A stretch of 64,000 nt of DNA. Source: an uncultured Gemmatimonadota bacterium (GTDB lineage Bacteria > Gemmatimonadota > Gemmatimonadetes > Gemmatimonadales > Gemmatimonadaceae). Of the stretch, positions 4,402 to 13,849 are shown piece by piece. A program made the position numbers and the translations under genes. A model generated the notes under the pieces. It searched no databases, had not been told where the DNA came from, and saw only the letters and a list, made by a program, of their open reading frames with translations. Position 1 is the first letter of the stretch. Every line of letters begins with the position of its first letter. The DNA is taken from NCBI GenBank assembly GCA_902825965.1, contig CADEDA010000008.1, positions 89,264 through 153,263 of the forward strand, in the 5' to 3' direction.

Positions 4402-5421
4402 TCAACGCACGTGAGGAAGCCACGCGGCGATCGCCGCCGCGATGGCCGCCGGCGACTGTTCCTGCACGTAGTGGTTCCCACGGACCTCCGCCTCGGTGGT
4501 GTTCGGCCAACTCCGACAGATCGCCTTCCGTCGTGGGTCGGCGAGCAGTGCACCCGGCGTGACGTTGATGAAGAGCTTCGGCACCGCCGACGTCGCCAAC
4601 CAGCCGCGGGTCTCCAGGACGACCGATTCCACCTCGGGTGGCGCACCATCGACCGGCACCTGCTGCGGCCACGTGAGGGTGGCGCGTCGCCCTTCGCCCG
4701 GCTCGCGGAACGGTCGCCGATACTCCTCGCGATCCTCGTCCGTGAGCGCGTCCCCCAGTCCGCGAATCAGCACGCGCTCGACGAACTGATTCTCCTGCAG
4801 CACCTCGCGTTCGCCGGCCGGCGTCCGATACCGCAGGAAGAAGTCCGCGACGCCGGGAGGCGCGGTCACGGTGGACAGGCCGTCCATGACGGTCTCCATG
4901 TGCGCGATGCCGGCCACGCGCTCCTCGTGTCGCCGCGCCCAGTCGAACCCGAGCATCCCGCCCCAGTCGTGCAGCACCAGCACCACCCGCGAGCCGACCC
5001 CCAGCGCATCCAGCAGGCCATCGAGATGGTCGCGCTGCACCGCGTAGCGATACCGCTGCGGATCGAGCCCGGCGAGCTTATCGGAGTCCCCGAAGCCGAT
5101 GAGGTCCGGCGCGACGCAGCGATGGCCGCGACCCAGCGGGTCGATGATGTTGCGCCAGAGATACGACGACGTGGGATTGCCGTGCAGGAACACCAACGTC
5201 GGTCGCTCGATGGAGCCGTCGCTCAACCCGGTGTCGACCGCCGCCATGCGCGCGCCCCGCACCTGCACGAAGCGCTTCTTCATCGGGCCGGTGCTTGTGG
5301 CGCCATCGCGACGTGCGCCCGCCGGCTCGCCGCGTGACCGCGCTGCGCCTTCGTGTGGCGCCAACGCCGCCGCGAACGTTCCGGCCGTCAGGGTTCGTAC
5401 GAACTCCCGTCGTCTCACCAT
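4402..5421 (-). CDS. Haloalkane dehalogenase-like alpha/beta hydrolase with Tat signal
   Basis: The 339-residue protein opens with a twin-arginine-type sequence (RRREFVRTLT, residues 3-12). The body matches haloalkane dehalogenases: HGNPTSSYLWRNII with the halide-stabilising Asn (about residue 82), the nucleophile elbow HDWGG with Asp 152 and adjacent Trp 153, the acid in AHMET (Glu 176, the subfamily II position), and a catalytic His in GNHYVQE near residue 317. The expected reaction is hydrolysis of carbon-halogen bonds in haloalkanes. Most characterised members are cytoplasmic, so the Tat leader is unusual. Epoxide hydrolase is the main alternative, but the Asn/Trp pair favours dehalogenase. 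Confidence 0.8.
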   Translation of the reverse strand: MVRRREFVRTLTAGTFAAALAPHEGAARSRGEPAGARRDGATSTGPMKKRFVQVRGARMAAVDTGLSDGSIERPTLVFLHGNPTSSYLWRNIIDPLGRGHRCVAPDLIGFGDSDKLAGLDPQRYRYAVQRDHLDGLLDALGVGSRVVLVLHDWGGMLGFDWARRHEERVAGIAHMETVMDGLSTVTAPPGVADFFLRYRTPAGEREVLQENQFVERVLIRGLGDALTDEDREEYRRPFREPGEGRRATLTWPQQVPVDGAPPEVESVVLETRGWLATSAVPKLFINVTPGALLADPRRKAICRSWPNTTEAEVRGNHYVQEQSPAAIAAAIAAWLPHVR

Positions 5422-5727
5422 GGTCTCGTGTCTCCTAGGGTCCTTCGGGGTCCCGGGCGCTTGATCACGATTGATCCTGCATTGCCCTCTACCAACGAGC
5501 CCGGCGGCGCGTCACATGGCGCGATTGGCACTCCGCTCGCGGCAAGTGCCTCTGGCATGAGGCCGACGGCTCGACGCCGCCGGGCGCGCTTCACCGCAGG
5601 ATGTCACGGGTCGGCACGACGTAGCCTCTCACGTTCGCGCAACCACGCATCGTGCCTGCGCGTGCCTGCGCGTGCCTCGCGCGCGCGTCGGAGCGCCCCC
5701 CCCATCCACCGACTGGAGCATCTCCGC
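5422..5727. other. Divergent intergenic region with a short tandem repeat
   Basis: This 306-bp gap separates the dehalogenase from the DUF1579-like lipoprotein gene and must hold both promoters. The only structure seen is a 10-bp unit, CGTGCCTGCG, repeated three times at 5651-5680 with changes in the third copy. No RNA gene or small reading frame with coding character was found. Confidence 0.5.
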
Positions 5728-6738
5728 ATGCGGCAGCTCGCTCGCCCCCTTCTGATCCTCTGCGTGGCGCTGCTGCCAGCCTGCGCCCTCCTTCCGCGGT
5801 CCGTCACGCGATCGGGTTCGCCTGCAGGGGAACCGGGTGGCTGCCCGGCGGCGGCGTATCGTGAGCTCGACTTCCTCGTGGGGCACTGGACGGTCGCGGG
5901 TGCCGGCGGCGGCCCCCCCGGCACGAGCAGCATCACCCGTGCACTCGGGGGCTGCGCACTTCAGGAACACTATCGCGACGGCGAAGGACGCAGCTTGTCC
6001 ATCCGCGACCCCCTCACCGGCGAGTGGACGCAGGACTACGTCGATCACACGGGACTGACGCTGCGCTTGCGCGGCCGACTCGGCGCGGACAGCCTGCTGA
6101 TGCAGGACTCCTTGCGCGTCACACGGAACGGCATCGGGCTGCGGAGCGTCTTCTCCTGGACTCCGGACGAGGCGCCGTACCGTCCCGGCCGCGGCTTCCG
6201 TCAGCGCTGGTGGTTCAGCACGGACTCGGGTCGTACGATGCGGCTGAACTTCGACGGACACTACACGCCCACCGAGTCGCGGATGGTACCGCCACCGGAG
6301 GGCAAGGTCTGTCTCGAACGCGCCGCCTACCGGGCATTGGACCAGTTCATCGGCACCTGGATCGTCACGGGTCCAAGGGGCCACGGCAGCGGGACGCTGA
6401 CGATCCAACGCGCGGCCGGCGGCTGCCTGCTCGAGGAGGACTTCACGGGACGCGACGGCACCCGCGCGATTGCGATGCTCTACTACGATCGCTACATCGA
6501 ACGCTGGTTCCGCGTCGCGGTCGACCAGCGCGGGCGCGTCACCCGCACGGAGGGCAGCGTCGCGGACGGCCTGCTCCTGATGCGCGGCAGCATCCGTCAC
6601 GCCGCCGGTGCCTCCGCCGTCGCGCTGCGGTGGGGAACGGGCGGTGACGAGTTGACGCAGGTCTGGCAGGACCTTGATCCCGCCCGTGCCCCGTCCACGC
6701 TCACGCTACGGCGTGATCGACGCCTGCAGCTGCCGTAG
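5728..6738 (+). CDS. Lipoprotein with two tandem DUF1579-like domains
   Basis: The ATG at 5728 gives a 336-residue product with a clear lipobox (LLPAC, Cys about residue 19). Two repeats follow. The first starts at AAYRELDFLVGHWTV and includes GGCALQEHYRDGEG. The second starts at AAYRALDQFIGTWIV and includes GGCLLEEDFTGRDG. These match the DUF1579-like pattern seen in three other genes in the window (21432, 37061 and 41343). The fold is expected to be a small beta barrel, and no enzyme activity is established. The 3' end overlaps the convergent cytochrome-fusion gene by 33 bp. Confidence 0.75.
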   Translation: MRQLARPLLILCVALLPACALLPRSVTRSGSPAGEPGGCPAAAYRELDFLVGHWTVAGAGGGPPGTSSITRALGGCALQEHYRDGEGRSLSIRDPLTGEWTQDYVDHTGLTLRLRGRLGADSLLMQDSLRVTRNGIGLRSVFSWTPDEAPYRPGRGFRQRWWFSTDSGRTMRLNFDGHYTPTESRMVPPPEGKVCLERAAYRALDQFIGTWIVTGPRGHGSGTLTIQRAAGGCLLEEDFTGRDGTRAIAMLYYDRYIERWFRVAVDQRGRVTRTEGSVADGLLLMRGSIRHAAGASAVALRWGTGGDELTQVWQDLDPARAPSTLTLRRDRRLQLP

Positions 6739-8433
6739 GAATGCGCGCGTCGGGTTGATGGCGAGTCCGCGTGCAAATGCGTCGCGCGCGCGCACCGTGT
6801 CGGCGTCGAGCAGGTACAGCTGCCCCATCTGCTGGTACGTGAACCAGGACTGGGGATGGAACTCGAGGTTCAGGCGCATGAGCGCGAGCGCGTCCGCGCG
6901 CTGCGCCGGCGTGGCACCGATGAGGTCCGCCACGGTCGGCAGTGTCACGTCGCTGAAGTCGTACGCATCGCTGCCGAAGTATTGGTCGCGCAGCCGGCGG
7001 TACAGGCGCTCCGTCTCGGCGAGTCCCTCCTTCTGATATGCAGACCGGAGCACGGACTCCAGCGGGCGCGGACGTGCCAGTCCCCGGTGACAGGTCGCGC
7101 AGGTCACCCTCTCCGGCGTCGCGCCGACGAGCCGCGCGGAGGGGAGATGCCGACCGTTGATGTCCTCCACCATGCGCAGCATCGCGCGAGCGATGGCCTT
7201 CGTCGGGTTCTCGTCCGATGCGTACTCGTCGGCCGCCGGGCGCACGCCGTTCCGGGCCGCGTGGCAGTGGACGCAGCGCACGCCGAGCGCACGCGTGAAC
7301 CCACCCATCACCGCCAGCACGCTGTCGTCCGCGAGGTCCGGCGGCAGGACCTGCAGGTTCCGAAGTGCCTGCGCCAGCGCATCCGTGGGCGACGGCATGC
7401 TCGGCGTCAGCAACGCGGACTTCCAGTCCGCCACGAACCGGTCGATGACCAGGAACAGAGCCAGACCCTCGTCCTGCGACCAATAGGGCTTCGGGCCCCG
7501 GAGGAAGTTGAGCAGCGCGACGTGCGAGCCGAGATCCCCGCGCCGACGATGCAGGTCGTACCGCACCCACTCGGCGGAGCCCTCCATGGTCAGGAACAGG
7601 TCCTCGAGTCGAGAGTAGGCGGCTAGCGAGTCGACATACGCGCGCGCGCGCCGGGCGCGCAGCACCGCGACGGCCTGCCGCGCGAGGGCGCGGGCGCGGT
7701 CCTCGTCCGGCTCCGCAGCCGCCGCGAACAAGAGCGCGCGCTCCTCCGCGACCTCCCTGGCGAAAGCCGAGTCGCCCTCGAACCGCGTCTGCACCATGTC
7801 GTCATTGATCCCCCCGGGCAAGGGCATGCGGCGGCCGAGGGCACTGAGCGCCGACACCAGGTCGCGCAACTGCGTGGTGTGGACGATCTCGTGGCTCATG
7901 ACACTGCGCATGAACAGGTCGAGCTGTGGGTCGGCCGCGTTGGCGGAGTCCTGCCGGAACACGCTGGGCAAGGCGAGCACGAAGTATGGCGGCTGGCCAT
8001 CCGATGAAGCCCGCGCGCTGGCGATCGGTCGCGCCGGGACTGAATCGCCCGACGGCAGCGGCACCCACCCGGTGTGTCGGCTCGTCCAGACAGTGACCTC
8101 GCGGCCATCGTAACGAAGTGCACTAGCGCGCTGGCTGGCGCGCTGGCTGGCTTGTCGGTCGCCGCCCCGCGGCACGCCGGGTTCGATGATCGGAGATTGT
8201 CGCAGCGGGTCCGCGAGGTGCCACACACAACTGGAGTCGAACACGACCATCCGCGGCAGCGTGCGCGCAGCCGAGGGAAGAATTTCGCGCGTGACCACCG
8301 CCCAGTCGGCGATCGCCGACTGCAGCCACGCACGTTCGGCCGCGCTGATCTCGCATGGGACCATCGGCCTCCCTGCTGCGGTCGCCTGGGCCCGGAGTCC
8401 AGTGGACAGCAGTCCCGACAGCGCGCAGAGCAC
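6706..8433 (-). CDS. Exported HExxH metallopeptidase-like protein fused to a di-haem reaction-centre-type cytochrome c domain
   Basis: The likely GTG start at 8433 gives about 575 residues beginning with a short signal sequence cleaved near LRAQA. The N-terminal half has HEIVH at residues 181-185 and a downstream MEGSAEW (Glu near 284-288) that could be the third zinc ligand, as in gluzincin peptidases. The C-terminal half matches the small CytoC_RC domain: LRNLQVLPPDL, then CVHCH (387-391), the axial-Met-type segment AMLRMVEDIN, and CATCHRG (from 445). A short helical repeat tail follows. The start is uncertain because no ATG precedes the signal sequence. The combination of the two domains is unusual. 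Confidence 0.75.
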   Translation of the reverse strand: MLCALSGLLSTGLRAQATAAGRPMVPCEISAAERAWLQSAIADWAVVTREILPSAARTLPRMVVFDSSCVWHLADPLRQSPIIEPGVPRGGDRQASQRASQRASALRYDGREVTVWTSRHTGWVPLPSGDSVPARPIASARASSDGQPPYFVLALPSVFRQDSANAADPQLDLFMRSVMSHEIVHTTQLRDLVSALSALGRRMPLPGGINDDMVQTRFEGDSAFAREVAEERALLFAAAAEPDEDRARALARQAVAVLRARRARAYVDSLAAYSRLEDLFLTMEGSAEWVRYDLHRRRGDLGSHVALLNFLRGPKPYWSQDEGLALFLVIDRFVADWKSALLTPSMPSPTDALAQALRNLQVLPPDLADDSVLAVMGGFTRALGVRCVHCHAARNGVRPAADEYASDENPTKAIARAMLRMVEDINGRHLPSARLVGATPERVTCATCHRGLARPRPLESVLRSAYQKEGLAETERLYRRLRDQYFGSDAYDFSDVTLPTVADLIGATPAQRADALALMRLNLEFHPQSWFTYQQMGQLYLLDADTVRARDAFARGLAINPTRAFLRQLQASITP

Positions 8434-8529
8434 GAAGAGGATCCGTGAGCCCAGCGGTCCATCCCATCCCGTGACGCCTTGCCACGGGAAGGGTCCACGG
8501 CCAAGCCGGCGACGCCACTCTCCACTTCG

Positions 8530-9344: not shown

Positions 9345-10139
9345 TCAAAGCAGCGGCTGGATCAACTGGTCGCGGAACGTGCGGCTCATCCGCAGCTTCC
9401 GGCCGTCCGTCAGCAAGACCACGCAGTCGCCGGCGAACCATGGCTGGATCTCCTTGATCGCATTCAGGTTCACGATGTACGAGCGGTGGATTCGGCGGAA
9501 CACCGCCGGATCGAGCTGCGGCAGCAGGGCACGCATCGTCATGCGCACGCTGCGCGTCCCCTTGACCGTATGGAAGACCAGATTGTTGCCGTCGGCTTCG
9601 ATGGACAGCACTTCGTCGAGTCGCACGTACCGGAAGTGCTCGTCCGAGTCCCGCACCAGGACCCGACGCGCGAAGCCGCGACCGGCCGGACGCGGGAGTT
9701 CGGCCGCCACCGAGGGGGCCAGGTCCTCGAGCAGCGCGGCCAGCGTCTGCCGCGTCTCCGTCCACCGTCCGTGCTCGATGCGCGAGCGGGCCTCCTGCAC
9801 GGCACGCTGGAGCCGCGCGTCGTCGTAGGGCTTGAGGACGTAGTCCACCGCGTGCACCTCGAAGGCGCGCACGGCGTACTGATCGTACGCCGTCGTGAAG
9901 ATCACCATCGGCAGTTGATCGGGCGAAAGGGCCGCGAGCACGCCGAAGCCATCGAGCCCCGGCATTTGCACATCGAGGAAGACGAGCTCCGGCTGGATGG
10001 CGCGGATGCCGTCGACCGCCGAGAGTCCATCCCCGAACTCTGCGACGATGTCCAGGCGGTCCTCGGGTCGAAGCGACGCCCGGACGGCCGCGCGGGCCAA
10101 CGGTTCGTCGTCGACGATGATGGTCTTGAGGGCGCGCAT
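9345..10139 (-). CDS. LytTR-family response regulator
   Basis: The 264-residue protein has an N-terminal receiver (VDDEPLAR, phospho-acceptor Asp in LVFLDVQMPG, the conserved Thr in IFTTAYD and Lys in YVLKPYD). Its C-terminal half is a LytTR DNA-binding domain (RVLVRDSDEHFRYV, IEADGNNLVFH, FRRIHRSYIVNLNAI). The ATG at 10139 overlaps the TGA of the upstream kinase gene (TGATG), so the pair is translationally coupled. It is expected to be phosphorylated by that kinase and to bind tandem LytTR sites. Its targets are unknown. Confidence 0.95.
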   Translation of the reverse strand: MRALKTIIVDDEPLARAAVRASLRPEDRLDIVAEFGDGLSAVDGIRAIQPELVFLDVQMPGLDGFGVLAALSPDQLPMVIFTTAYDQYAVRAFEVHAVDYVLKPYDDARLQRAVQEARSRIEHGRWTETRQTLAALLEDLAPSVAAELPRPAGRGFARRVLVRDSDEHFRYVRLDEVLSIEADGNNLVFHTVKGTRSVRMTMRALLPQLDPAVFRRIHRSYIVNLNAIKEIQPWFAGDCVVLLTDGRKLRMSRTFRDQLIQPLL

Positions 10140-11320
10140 CAACGGCGGATCGGCAGTACGAGGGTCACAGTGGCTCCGCGTCCTGGAGTGGAGTGGATCT
10201 CGACGCGCCCCTGCGCGCCATACAGCTGTGTGAGACGAGCCTGCGTGTTGCTGAGCCCGATGCCGACACCCACCGTGCCGCCGACCGGGAAGCCCGGCCC
10301 ATCATCCTCCACGGCGATGCGGAGTTCTGCGCGGTCGTCGCGCGCCGCCGCCCGCACGCGCAGTGACGCTGGGCCCGGGCGCGCCGCCAGGCCGTGCCGC
10401 AGCGCGTTCTCCGCCAGCGGTTGCAGGCAGAGGATCGGGACCAGGCAACTCCGCGCCTCTTCCGCGATCTCGTAGTCGACGCTGAGTCGGTCACCGAAGC
10501 GTTCCCGCTCGATGTCGAGATAGAGCGCCAGGTGCGCGAGTTCCGTCGCGAGCGGGACCTCGGGCGCCGCTGCACTCGTCAGGCTCACGCGCAGGAGATC
10601 GCCGAGCCGGGCCAGCGCGACCACCGCCGGTTGCAGCTGTTGGCCCCGCACGAGCGCCGAGATCGTGTTGAGCGCGTTGAACAGGAAGTGCGGGGAGACT
10701 TGCAGGCGCAGGGCATCGAGGCGGGCGGCGCTGGCGGCCGCCTCGGACTGCGCCACCCGTGCCGCCAGCCGGACGGCCGCCAGCTCGCGCCAGTGCAGCC
10801 GCCGATGCGTGTCGAATGCGTAGAACAACCCCACCGTCGCAGAGAAGGTGAGGATCTCCAGGAGCAGCGCCGCACTCGCGTTGTTGCGCATCGTGACCAC
10901 GTACCCCTGCAGACGCACCTGTGGCAGCGGATTCGTGAAGTACCACAGCGTCAACGCCAACGGGATGTGGATCGCGATGATCGCCACGCCTCCCGCCGCC
11001 ACGCCGCCCAGCCGGAGCCACCACCGCGGTCCATCGACACGCATGCGATCCGCGAGCGCGAACACCGCCGGCGTCAGGATCGCCCAGGCGAACCACCACG
11101 GGAAGTTCGCGAGCAGCGCGTACGCCCACGGAATCTCGGCGACGCCCATCCGCGCGGGATTGCTGATGACCCGCGCCGTCTCGAGTGCCCCGAGGAGACA
11201 CCACCCGATCAGGGTCGCGCGGCGCTGCAACACCCCGAGACCCCGCCAGCGGTAGGGCGGCAACGGGGCGTGCTCGTGCGTCGGCGACTCGAGGTCGGCG
11301 GAGGGGGAAGGCGCGGTCAC
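10139..11320 (-). CDS. LytS/YehU-type sensor histidine kinase
   Basis: The 393-residue protein has about four membrane segments in its first 170 residues, a short coiled linker, then the His_kinase domain signature SPHFLFNALNTISALV containing the phospho-accepting His. It is followed by an HATPase with CLQPLAENALRHG, DDGPGFP and GVGIGLSNTQARL. It starts with GTG, 13 bp after the stop of the lipoprotein gene at 11334 and overlaps the LytTR regulator at its 3' end. The three genes look like one operon, with the lipoprotein as a possible sensor partner or target. No extracellular sensor domain is visible. Confidence 0.92.
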   Translation of the reverse strand: MTAPSPSADLESPTHEHAPLPPYRWRGLGVLQRRATLIGWCLLGALETARVISNPARMGVAEIPWAYALLANFPWWFAWAILTPAVFALADRMRVDGPRWWLRLGGVAAGGVAIIAIHIPLALTLWYFTNPLPQVRLQGYVVTMRNNASAALLLEILTFSATVGLFYAFDTHRRLHWRELAAVRLAARVAQSEAAASAARLDALRLQVSPHFLFNALNTISALVRGQQLQPAVVALARLGDLLRVSLTSAAAPEVPLATELAHLALYLDIERERFGDRLSVDYEIAEEARSCLVPILCLQPLAENALRHGLAARPGPASLRVRAAARDDRAELRIAVEDDGPGFPVGGTVGVGIGLSNTQARLTQLYGAQGRVEIHSTPGRGATVTLVLPIRR

Positions 11321-11333
11321 GCGGTGCGAAGGC

Positions 11334-13484
11334 TCAGTCGGGAAGGCGGAGCAGGGCCAGCTCGATCGGACGGTTGCTGATCACCTCATATACCCCACCG
11401 ACCCCAGTGTCGTCGAGAATGACGTACCCGGCATGGCCGGAGGGAAGGCTCTCCAGCGATTGCACCCGCCCCGACCCTGCGCGGAGCTGCAGCGCCGTGA
11501 ACCACCGAGCACCGGCGAAAAGGTAGTGCGGGTTGTTGAAGTCCGCGTGGGCGGCCTGGTCGTCGGCGGCTTGGCTCAGGATGAAGCGCAGCAGCGACAC
11601 GGTGGGATCGAAATCCGGCGTGAACGTCCGCATGAGGGCGACGAGACCGCCGTCCGGACGACACGACGACTGGTAGCAGCCATACAGCCCGAACGGCGCC
11701 GAGCGCGCCAGGCGCTGCAAGGCTGACTCGATGCTCTCGCCGTGCCGCGCCGTGAGCTCCGTGACCAGGTCCCGCAGATACGTCACCCCCGCCTGGCTCA
11801 GCCCGCGCGAGAGCTGTCCCCCGCCGAGCAACTCCGTCAACGGATAGTTCCCGAACGGTCGCGTGCCGTCGGCCGCGGCAAAGTCGTAGTTCGAGGCCCA
11901 TGGCACGCCGGACGCGCGGCGGGCTGCCTCCGCGATAAGGAGGTCGACCGTGGCGTGATGCGCCCATTCCTGCAACCGCTGCGCGCCGGCCGGCCGCGGC
12001 TCGGCCGGGAGGAATCCGTTGGCCGCATCCACGTAGCGCGCCACGAGCGGCGACGCGATGGCGCGCAGCAGGGCGGTCGAGAGGGACGGGCTGACGAACG
12101 AGGTGCCCGCCGACACGATCATCTCCACATGGTCGAAGTACGCGAGCGCGACGAACATCGAGTTGGCGGACCCCGCACTCGCCTGCACATTCGTCATCAC
12201 CACCGGCGCATACCCGGACGCCGTGCCGAGCAGGGCGTCCACCGCCGTCCGCCGGAGCAAGGGGATGAGGATGGTGTCGATCACGGGGCCCACCACGTCC
12301 ATCGCCGGCAGAATGCGCTCCCGGATCACCGCCTCGGCGTCGCGCGGCCCGATGAATGGGACCCGACCGTACACGGCGTAGACCCGCCCCGCGAACGGCG
12401 CACTGGCCCCGAAGCGGTCCGGAAAGAACGTCAGCGTGTCGCCCACGACGAACGTGTCCCGTGCGATCAAGGCCGGCGCGCCAGACCGCGCGACGGACGC
12501 CACGAACGACGTCCGCATGAGCGACGACGTCGCGTCGGGGGCGGGTACAGGCGTCTCGCCGGCCAAGGGCCTGAGACGCTGCACCGCGCCCCCGGCGGCC
12601 GTGGGCGTGCCCCGCTCCGCAAACGTGATGCTGTGCGGCTCCGGCCGGCGATCGAACCCCACAGGGGCGAGGGCACCCGAATCGACCACGCCCGTTGGGT
12701 CCAACCATGCCAGGACGTAGCGAGAGCCCGTGGCCTCCAGCCGCAGGCAGCTCGCCTGCTGCGCCGTGAGGCGGCGCCACGCACCGGGATCCAAGCGTGT
12801 GCGCGGCATCGCGCGGGACAGCACCACCTGCGCCCCGTTGGCGACGCCCGTGACCGCGAACGGCAGTGTCGCCGTTGCCGCGCAGCCCGATTCGCGCGGC
12901 GCCAGCGCCAGGCTCGGCACGACGAAGCGCGCCGTCGCGCTGTCGACGGGGAGCAAGGCCGTGACGGTACCGGCCACGGCGACCTCAGTGGCCGCCGACG
13001 GCAGACGGAAGCCGCGCAGGTGCACCGTGTCACCCGGTTGCACGGGATCCCCGTTGACCACACGCAGAACCGTCGGCTGCGCCAGCACGGCCGTGAGAGA
13101 CAACTCCGCCGGCGTCGCGCCTTCGGCGGCGAACTCCACGCGGACCCGGCCCGGTGCTTGCGGCACGATCCGTCCGTCGGCCAGGGCCAGCGGATTCAGC
13201 ACCGGGTCCTCGGAGAGCCAGCGTGATTCGTCGCGCACGCGCACGCTGATCGGCGCGCTCGGTCGGCCCGGCACACGCGCATTGACCAGCACATTCGCGG
13301 AGCCGATCACCACCTCGCGCACGGGCGCATCGATGACCACTGCCGGCGTCACGGGCGGCTCCGTGGTCGAGTCAGCGCAACCCGCGAACCCCAGACAAGC
13401 GCCGAGCGTGATCGTTCGCACCGCACCGCTGCAGGCGACCCGGCAGGGCCAGATCTCGCGCGGGAGCCTCGCACCGACACGCAT
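11334..13484 (-). CDS. Large lipoprotein of unknown function, first gene of a LytS/LytTR operon
   Basis: The ATG at 13484 gives 716 residues with a lipobox (LGFAGC) after a long N-region. Residues 50-250 look like one or two Ig/TIG-like beta domains (for example VLRVVNGDPVQPGDTVHLRGFRLP). The rest is mixed alpha/beta, with segments such as LQEWAHHATVDLLIAEAARR and DFNNPHYLFAGARWFTALQL that resemble the architecture of secreted peptidase-like proteins. I see no complete HExxH or Ser triad. It is probably anchored in the outer or inner membrane. Its position immediately before the kinase gene suggests a shared regulatory or stress function. Confidence 0.65.
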   Translation of the reverse strand: MRVGARLPREIWPCRVACSGAVRTITLGACLGFAGCADSTTEPPVTPAVVIDAPVREVVIGSANVLVNARVPGRPSAPISVRVRDESRWLSEDPVLNPLALADGRIVPQAPGRVRVEFAAEGATPAELSLTAVLAQPTVLRVVNGDPVQPGDTVHLRGFRLPSAATEVAVAGTVTALLPVDSATARFVVPSLALAPRESGCAATATLPFAVTGVANGAQVVLSRAMPRTRLDPGAWRRLTAQQASCLRLEATGSRYVLAWLDPTGVVDSGALAPVGFDRRPEPHSITFAERGTPTAAGGAVQRLRPLAGETPVPAPDATSSLMRTSFVASVARSGAPALIARDTFVVGDTLTFFPDRFGASAPFAGRVYAVYGRVPFIGPRDAEAVIRERILPAMDVVGPVIDTILIPLLRRTAVDALLGTASGYAPVVMTNVQASAGSANSMFVALAYFDHVEMIVSAGTSFVSPSLSTALLRAIASPLVARYVDAANGFLPAEPRPAGAQRLQEWAHHATVDLLIAEAARRASGVPWASNYDFAAADGTRPFGNYPLTELLGGGQLSRGLSQAGVTYLRDLVTELTARHGESIESALQRLARSAPFGLYGCYQSSCRPDGGLVALMRTFTPDFDPTVSLLRFILSQAADDQAAHADFNNPHYLFAGARWFTALQLRAGSGRVQSLESLPSGHAGYVILDDTGVGGVYEVISNRPIELALLRLPD

Positions 13485-13849
13485 GGACGTCTCGCGACGC
13501 GCTGCGAGTCGACGAGGACCATCACACGGGGAAACCGCCCGCCTCGCATTCGCGGGTCTGTGGACCGGGAGCATTCGTCCTCCGCAAGAGTATGGAGCCG
13601 CACCGACCACCCGATTCGACCCCCGCCCAATGGAGATTGGCGAACCGGACCGCGAGTCGCCGGATCATGGGGCGAGGCGCATTCAGGCGTGATATGTCGT
13701 CCGGGTGCCACCGCAGGTCTCGAAGCCACGGCGTCTGCCGCGAACGGGATCCGAGACGGTCTGTCACACGGCGCAACGCGCCTCGTGGCGTCGATGTTAT
13801 GCTCTCGGAGGCCCATCATTCTCTCACCCGCCGCCACTTGAGGACCCAC
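13485..13849. other. Divergent intergenic region
   Basis: This 365-bp region separates the lipoprotein/LytS operon from the DinB gene. I see no convincing reading frame, hairpin or repeat. It should contain the two divergent promoters. Confidence 0.4.

Follow-up and report, generated by a model that had tools for sequence, protein, structure and literature searches.

An in-frame fusion of an exported HExxH domain family to a two-haem reaction-centre-type cytochrome in a Gemmatimonadota genome

The fused gene and its surroundings

The window, by which we mean the whole 64,000-nucleotide stretch of DNA that was analysed, carries on its minus strand a gene running from 8433 to 6706, with a GTG start and a single unbroken frame of 575 codons followed by a stop. 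An earlier note, made from the letters of the sequence, had placed a gene at these coordinates, which were exactly reproduced. Residues are given in the P0001 numbering, in which residue 1 lies at window position 8475 and the GTG start is residue 15; position 8475 was itself ruled out as a start, the codon there being GTC. The features of the gene and its product are as follows.

6706..8433, minus strand: the whole CDS, with a GTG start; starting instead from CTG 8454 would give a better signal peptide
8383..8454, minus strand: predicted signal peptide, ending ...ILFVLCALSGLLSTGLRAQA before TA; a by-eye call, with a helix at residues 7-22 in the model
7366..8355, minus strand: HExxH domain, residues 41-370, an undescribed exported family of gluzincin-like putative metallopeptidases
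7879..7893, minus strand: HEIVH, residues 195-199, the putative zinc-binding and catalytic motif, with H195, E196 and H199 invariant in 45/45 members
7741..7743, minus strand: E245, invariant in 45/45 members, alternative candidate for the third metal ligand
7582..7584, minus strand: E298 in FLTMEGSAEWVRY, invariant in 45/45 members, favoured candidate for the third metal ligand
7360..7368, minus strand: junction, residues 370-372, where the HExxH domain ends and the cytochrome starts, with zero linker
7066..7362, minus strand: dihaem cytochrome domain of the NF033196 / CytoC_RC type, residues 372-470, from HMM matches and homologue alignment
7261..7275, minus strand: haem site 1, CVHCH, residues 401-405, invariant in 45 homologues
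7087..7101, minus strand: haem site 2, CATCH, residues 459-463, invariant in 45 homologues
6709..7065, minus strand: C-terminal helical TPR-like tail, residues 471-589, typical of stand-alone cytochromes of this type

The exact start of the gene is uncertain, although either choice leaves the fusion intact. Going upstream, no in-frame ATG, GTG or TTG occurs up to 8715, and the next one falls within a plus-strand gene for a fatty-acid desaturase; hence the start is either GTG 8433 or CTG 8454, a rarer start codon. The former produces a short signal peptide, the hydrophobic core of which has no preceding basic residue, whilst the latter (MGSRILFVLCALSGLLSTGLRAQA) produces one closer to that of the stand-alone orthologue. 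A larger frame, reaching 9765, was rejected as spurious, as it overlaps the desaturase gene on the opposite strand. The predicted signal peptide aligns with that of the stand-alone HExxH orthologue, and export of the fused protein, proposed in the earlier note, appears probable from its signal-like N-terminus.

The third-position GC content keeps to around 0.80-0.93 between residue 150 and the end of the gene and is about 0.85-0.93 over the domain junction, where it shows no break, and the GC content of the surrounding region is around 0.70 throughout. Given the composition of the protein itself, approximately 0.009 HExxH motifs and 0.0016 CxxCH motifs would be expected by chance.

At its 3' end the fused gene has a convergent overlap of 33 bases (6706-6738) with a plus-strand gene ending at 6738. 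Further along the window, an alpha/beta hydrolase at 4402-5421 (minus strand), which by eye is haloalkane-dehalogenase-like, has a possible twin-arginine signal peptide (MVRRREFVRTLTAGTFAAALA). Upstream of the fused gene, and on the same strand, are a sensor kinase (His_kinase, HATPase_c) and a LytTR response regulator (9345-11320), separated from it by the plus-strand desaturase gene; beyond these, at 11334-13610 (minus strand), is a 758 aa probable exported protein that matches no Pfam family.

The HExxH domain and its family

The HExxH domain matched no family in Pfam or NCBIfam, and had no sequence relative in the PDB. A contig scan using the full-length fused protein as the query found zero loci; the same type of scan using a four-row alignment, with one genome per species, revealed 50 loci of the HExxH family, spanning the Acidobacteriota, Alphaproteobacteria, Bacteroidota, Planctomycetota and Gemmatimonadota. 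Apart from the window protein and a few fragments, the members are stand-alone proteins of around 280-380 aa, many of which have signal-like or lipoprotein-like starts, and at none of the 50 loci does a CxxCH motif occur in the same protein as the HExxH domain. The nearest stand-alone homologue (L049, on the same contig as G171) is 347 aa long and shares 46% identity with the window protein, the N-terminal domain of which is placed as its sister in the tree with support of 100/99.

Ten residues are invariant in all 45 of the aligned members (the window protein and 44 stand-alone sequences): H195, E196, H199, E245, R275, E298, G299, W332, Q334 and G337. The motif that the earlier note had read as zinc-peptidase-like is thus fixed across the family, and its plausible downstream glutamate has become two invariant candidates, E245 and E298. 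The combination of HExxH with a downstream invariant glutamate that characterises the gluzincin clan MA(E) is present in 45/45 members, and E298 follows HExxH by 95-99 residues in every one of them, and by 98 in the window protein. As judged from these alignments, this unnamed exported HExxH family, with its strictly conserved active-site signature, is a real family. Two cysteines, C41 and C83, are both present in 27 members, both absent from 15 and found singly in three, a pattern that suggests a periplasmic disulphide.

No conservation of gene neighbourhood was seen across the phyla, and no match to the domain was found on plasmids. In five Acidobacteriota (L050, L053, L054, L060 and L061, of the Pyrinomonadaceae and Blastocatellia), the stand-alone gene lies in a conserved run that reads as ileS - lspA - lgt - HExxH - pseudouridine synthase, adjoining genes of lipoprotein maturation (names assigned by eye); the ileS - lspA - lgt - HExxH arrangement is not kept in other phyla.

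An AlphaFold model of residues 1-370 had a pLDDT of 88.9 and a pTM of 0.85. Foldseek found no match to this model in the PDB at an E value of 0.001 or better. The best 18 rows returned by VIA-align comprised 17 M1 aminopeptidases, IRAP, ERAP1 and ERAP2 being amongst the M1 rows, and one putative lipoprotein (3o0y); these were followed by ACE2 (M2), M61 and lethal-factor folds, and the absence of a family from this list was not counted as evidence. The top row, 2gtq, had a Z score of 8.8 and an rmsd of 3.7 over 166 aligned residues, which could represent nothing more than a common arrangement. Whilst a Z score of about 8 could be coincidental, one enzyme class that shares the HExxH motif takes up nearly all of the highest rows. 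The modelled domain resembles the gluzincin zinc peptidases, with M1 the best match, at a modest Z score.

Membership of two known families was considered, and the sequence does not support either. The domain has no Pfam match to M1 (PF01433), and hhalign gave the family a probability of 4.6% against M1, aligning only the HExxH helix; nor is the HExxH-18x-E spacing of M1 found, there being 45 residues to E245 and 98 to E298. None of the 45 members matches Peptidase_MA_2 (PF13485), for which the hhalign probability was 2.8%; the positive control, M1 against PF13485, scored 86.7%. Of the two candidates for the third metal ligand, E298 is favoured over E245 because FLTMEGSAEWVRY resembles the third-ligand motif of M1, WLNEGFA; on the alignment, E245 in this role is possible.

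The cytochrome half, the junction and the host genome

The C-terminal half, which the earlier note had recognised as a CytoC_RC-type domain with two CxxCH sites, exceeds the cut-offs of both relevant models: it scores 90.7 bits (cut-off 70; E value 5e-26) against NF033196, 'c_type_nonphoto', with residues 372-469 matching positions 1-97 of 98, and 35.7 bits (cut-off 22.4; E value 8e-9) against PF02276. Against the PufC equivalog NF040706 it reaches 45.5 bits, compared with a cut-off of 150, and it has two CxxCH motifs rather than four haem sites. Its sequence relatives in the PDB are reaction-centre cytochrome subunits. Across 45 stand-alone homologues, both CxxCH motifs, M390, M432, M435, D421, K426, R430 and N440 are invariant, and at every column conserved to 95% or more in this set the fused cytochrome has the conserved residue, despite sharing around 43% identity with its nearest relatives. 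From this conservation we infer that M390, eleven residues upstream of haem site 1, is an axial ligand, and that M432 or M435 is likely to serve as the axial ligand of haem site 2. The tail matches TPR_12 weakly (E value 0.63); since homology with the stand-alone cytochromes runs to around residue 583, it belongs to the normal cytochrome family. The full-length model has low pLDDT in this half, reflecting an input alignment that contained no rows of cytochrome homologues.

The cytochrome family is common: 161 of the 395 sampled Gemmatimonadota have matches at an E value of 0.001 or better, some of them PufC-like, and 123 exceed the NF033196 cut-off, mostly through open frames of 200-400 codons. 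Hence the statement in the earlier note that non-photosynthetic bacteria often have stand-alone domains of this type holds for the family. It fails for the host, which encodes on contig C44 (L048; matches at 5714-8498) two Photo_RC proteins (PufL and PufM; PF00124) together with a cytochrome of the PufC type, and hence carries the reaction-centre genes of a phototroph. The assembly is a draft of 73 contigs, that with the fused gene being 157 kb long, and the puf genes are on a different one; searches of the host found each domain once, the PufC-type cytochrome excepted.

At the junction, A370 is the last invariant column of the peptidase alignment and N373 the first of the cytochrome alignment, with two residues between them. 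The stand-alone relative G171/L049 ends in ...ASPVEVLEQALAG and a stop codon (...VLEQALAG, then stop); at the same point the window protein has ...PSPTDALAQALRNLQVLPPDLADD and continues into the cytochrome. In most stand-alone cytochromes, 27-60 residues that include a signal peptide precede the position equivalent to N373, and in the fused protein the cytochrome's own signal peptide has been lost. Removal of a stop codon, intergenic DNA and a signal peptide, with the frame kept, is not something that a misjoin or a simple sequencing indel would achieve. A frameshift or a start that would separate the two domains, the refuting condition set in the earlier note, was looked for, and neither was found; nor is there any stop or frame change between them in the minus-strand frame.

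No second fusion was detected among 60 relatives, among 395 Gemmatimonadota (in searches with both the N-terminal domain and NF033196), among 396 Acidobacteriota (with the whole protein as the query), or among the 34 other carriers of the N-terminal domain. A 45-row profile identified four carriers in 288 genomes of the order, of which only the window protein is fused. Long open frames around the cytochromes of G229 and G071 were rejected as fusions, being the result of spurious upstream read-through; the gene in G031 was seen with its own N-terminus, and G189, with an open frame of 943, did not come up as a carrier in the N-domain searches. The fused locus showed no synteny within the genus, and no literature on a fusion of an HExxH domain with a dihaem cytochrome was found. 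At the level of the assembled sequence, the fusion is confirmed as real, and is known from one genome only.

In genomes that have both families (e.g. G400, G402, G419 and G429), the two genes are on different contigs. Many genomes with the HExxH family, above all those of Alphaproteobacteria, lack the cytochrome; hence no general functional link between the two families is apparent.

Readings of the fusion and likeness to known systems

The reading that we prefer, with a probability of roughly 55%, is the end-to-end fusion of the genes for a separately exported gluzincin-like metallopeptidase (residues ~41-370) and a two-haem cytochrome with a TPR-like tail (372-589), producing a tethered two-module periplasmic enzyme. 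The signal peptide of the peptidase would take the protein to the periplasm, where the ordinary machinery of cytochrome c maturation would attach haem. The zinc ligands would be H195, H199 and probably E298, and E196 would act as the general base. The cytochrome would then dock to the redox partner or membrane complex that is usual for it, carrying electrons as its stand-alone relatives presumably do, whilst the tethered peptidase would cleave envelope proteins or peptides at the docking site. The gain from fusion would be co-localisation and equal dosage, and electron transfer and hydrolysis may run independently of each other.

That the join is instead neutral, or a recent accident in which the halves keep their old, unrelated jobs, is unlikely, but must be treated as a serious rival because there is a single example. 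Its restriction to one genome, and absence from the other genomes of the genus and order that were searched, would be expected of such an accident, as would the failure to acquire a linker or any other new element; however, both halves have long diverged from their relatives (at 46% and around 43% identity), and yet retain nearly all of the conserved residues.

It is rather less probable that the HExxH domain is not a peptidase at all, but a metal-binding or structural module, or an enzyme with a non-peptide substrate. Activity is not known for any member of the family, nor does sequence link it to a named peptidase family. Against this, the HExxH motif, two glutamates and an arginine show no variation across five phyla, and zinc peptidases come out as the best neighbours in fold.

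A tighter coupling of the halves, as suggested in the earlier note, can also be envisaged, in which the peptidase changes its conformation or its docking with the redox state of the haems, so that cleavage is switched on or off. The zero-length junction between A370 and N373 would favour rigid coupling, and both active centres are intact. However, a single fused sequence offers no detectable conserved interface, the fused cytochrome is the same as its stand-alone relatives at conserved positions, and the peptidase family occurs without the cytochrome in dozens of genomes, making such redox-controlled proteolysis improbable. Its more specific form, a haem-gated periplasmic protease in which the dihaem cytochrome would act as a sensor or donor of electrons and the adjoining, linker-free zinc peptidase would be switched by the redox state of the cytochrome, is distinctly improbable, the whole case for gating being the shortness of the junction.

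The presence of PufL, PufM and a PufC-type cytochrome in the host might suggest that the cytochrome half works in photosynthetic electron transport; this is very improbable, as the domain is of the non-photosynthetic NF033196 type and falls far below the PufC cut-off (45.5 against 150 bits), the gene is not on the puf contig, and the fused cytochrome is missing from other members of the genus that do have PufC-like matches. An artefact that joined two genes in a single draft assembly of 73 contigs is the least credible alternative of all, given a 157 kb contig, an in-frame join of two complete domains from which exactly the second signal peptide and the intergenic DNA are gone, and a genome with no other copy of either domain beyond the PufC-type cytochrome.

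The fusion draws attention to two families that have received little study: a widespread exported HExxH family, unnamed in the family libraries that were searched, and the common family of dihaem cytochromes, with no assigned role found for it. As a natural fusion, it provides the concrete hypothesis of a peptidase acting beside a cytochrome complex, and the protein represents a single chain in which zinc, haem and any cross-talk between them could be assayed jointly.

The stand-alone NF033196 cytochromes of Gemmatimonadota and Acidobacteriota have the same two CxxCH motifs, invariant Met, Asp, Lys, Arg and Asn residues and TPR-like tail as the fused half; however, they are around 250-290 aa long with their own signal peptide, whereas the window cytochrome is the C-terminal half of a 575 aa protein and has no signal peptide of its own. 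PufC, the tetrahaem subunit of the reaction centre, contains a related haem domain (PF02276, positions 91-140), but has four haem sites where the window cytochrome, which has no linkage to puf, has two. On the other side of the junction, the HExxH proteins of L049/G171, L055 (Sphingomonas colocasiae) and L073 (Chitinophaga) are homologous to the window domain over their full length and share all of its invariant residues, although they and the other members of the family all stand alone, the window protein being the only one that is fused. More distantly, the M1 aminopeptidases (2gtq), and the MA(E) gluzincins more widely, share the HExxH helix, a modest similarity of fold and an EG motif like that of WLNEGFA; this motif follows HExxH by 18 residues in M1 and by around 98 in the window protein, and homology between the two is not detectable in sequence.
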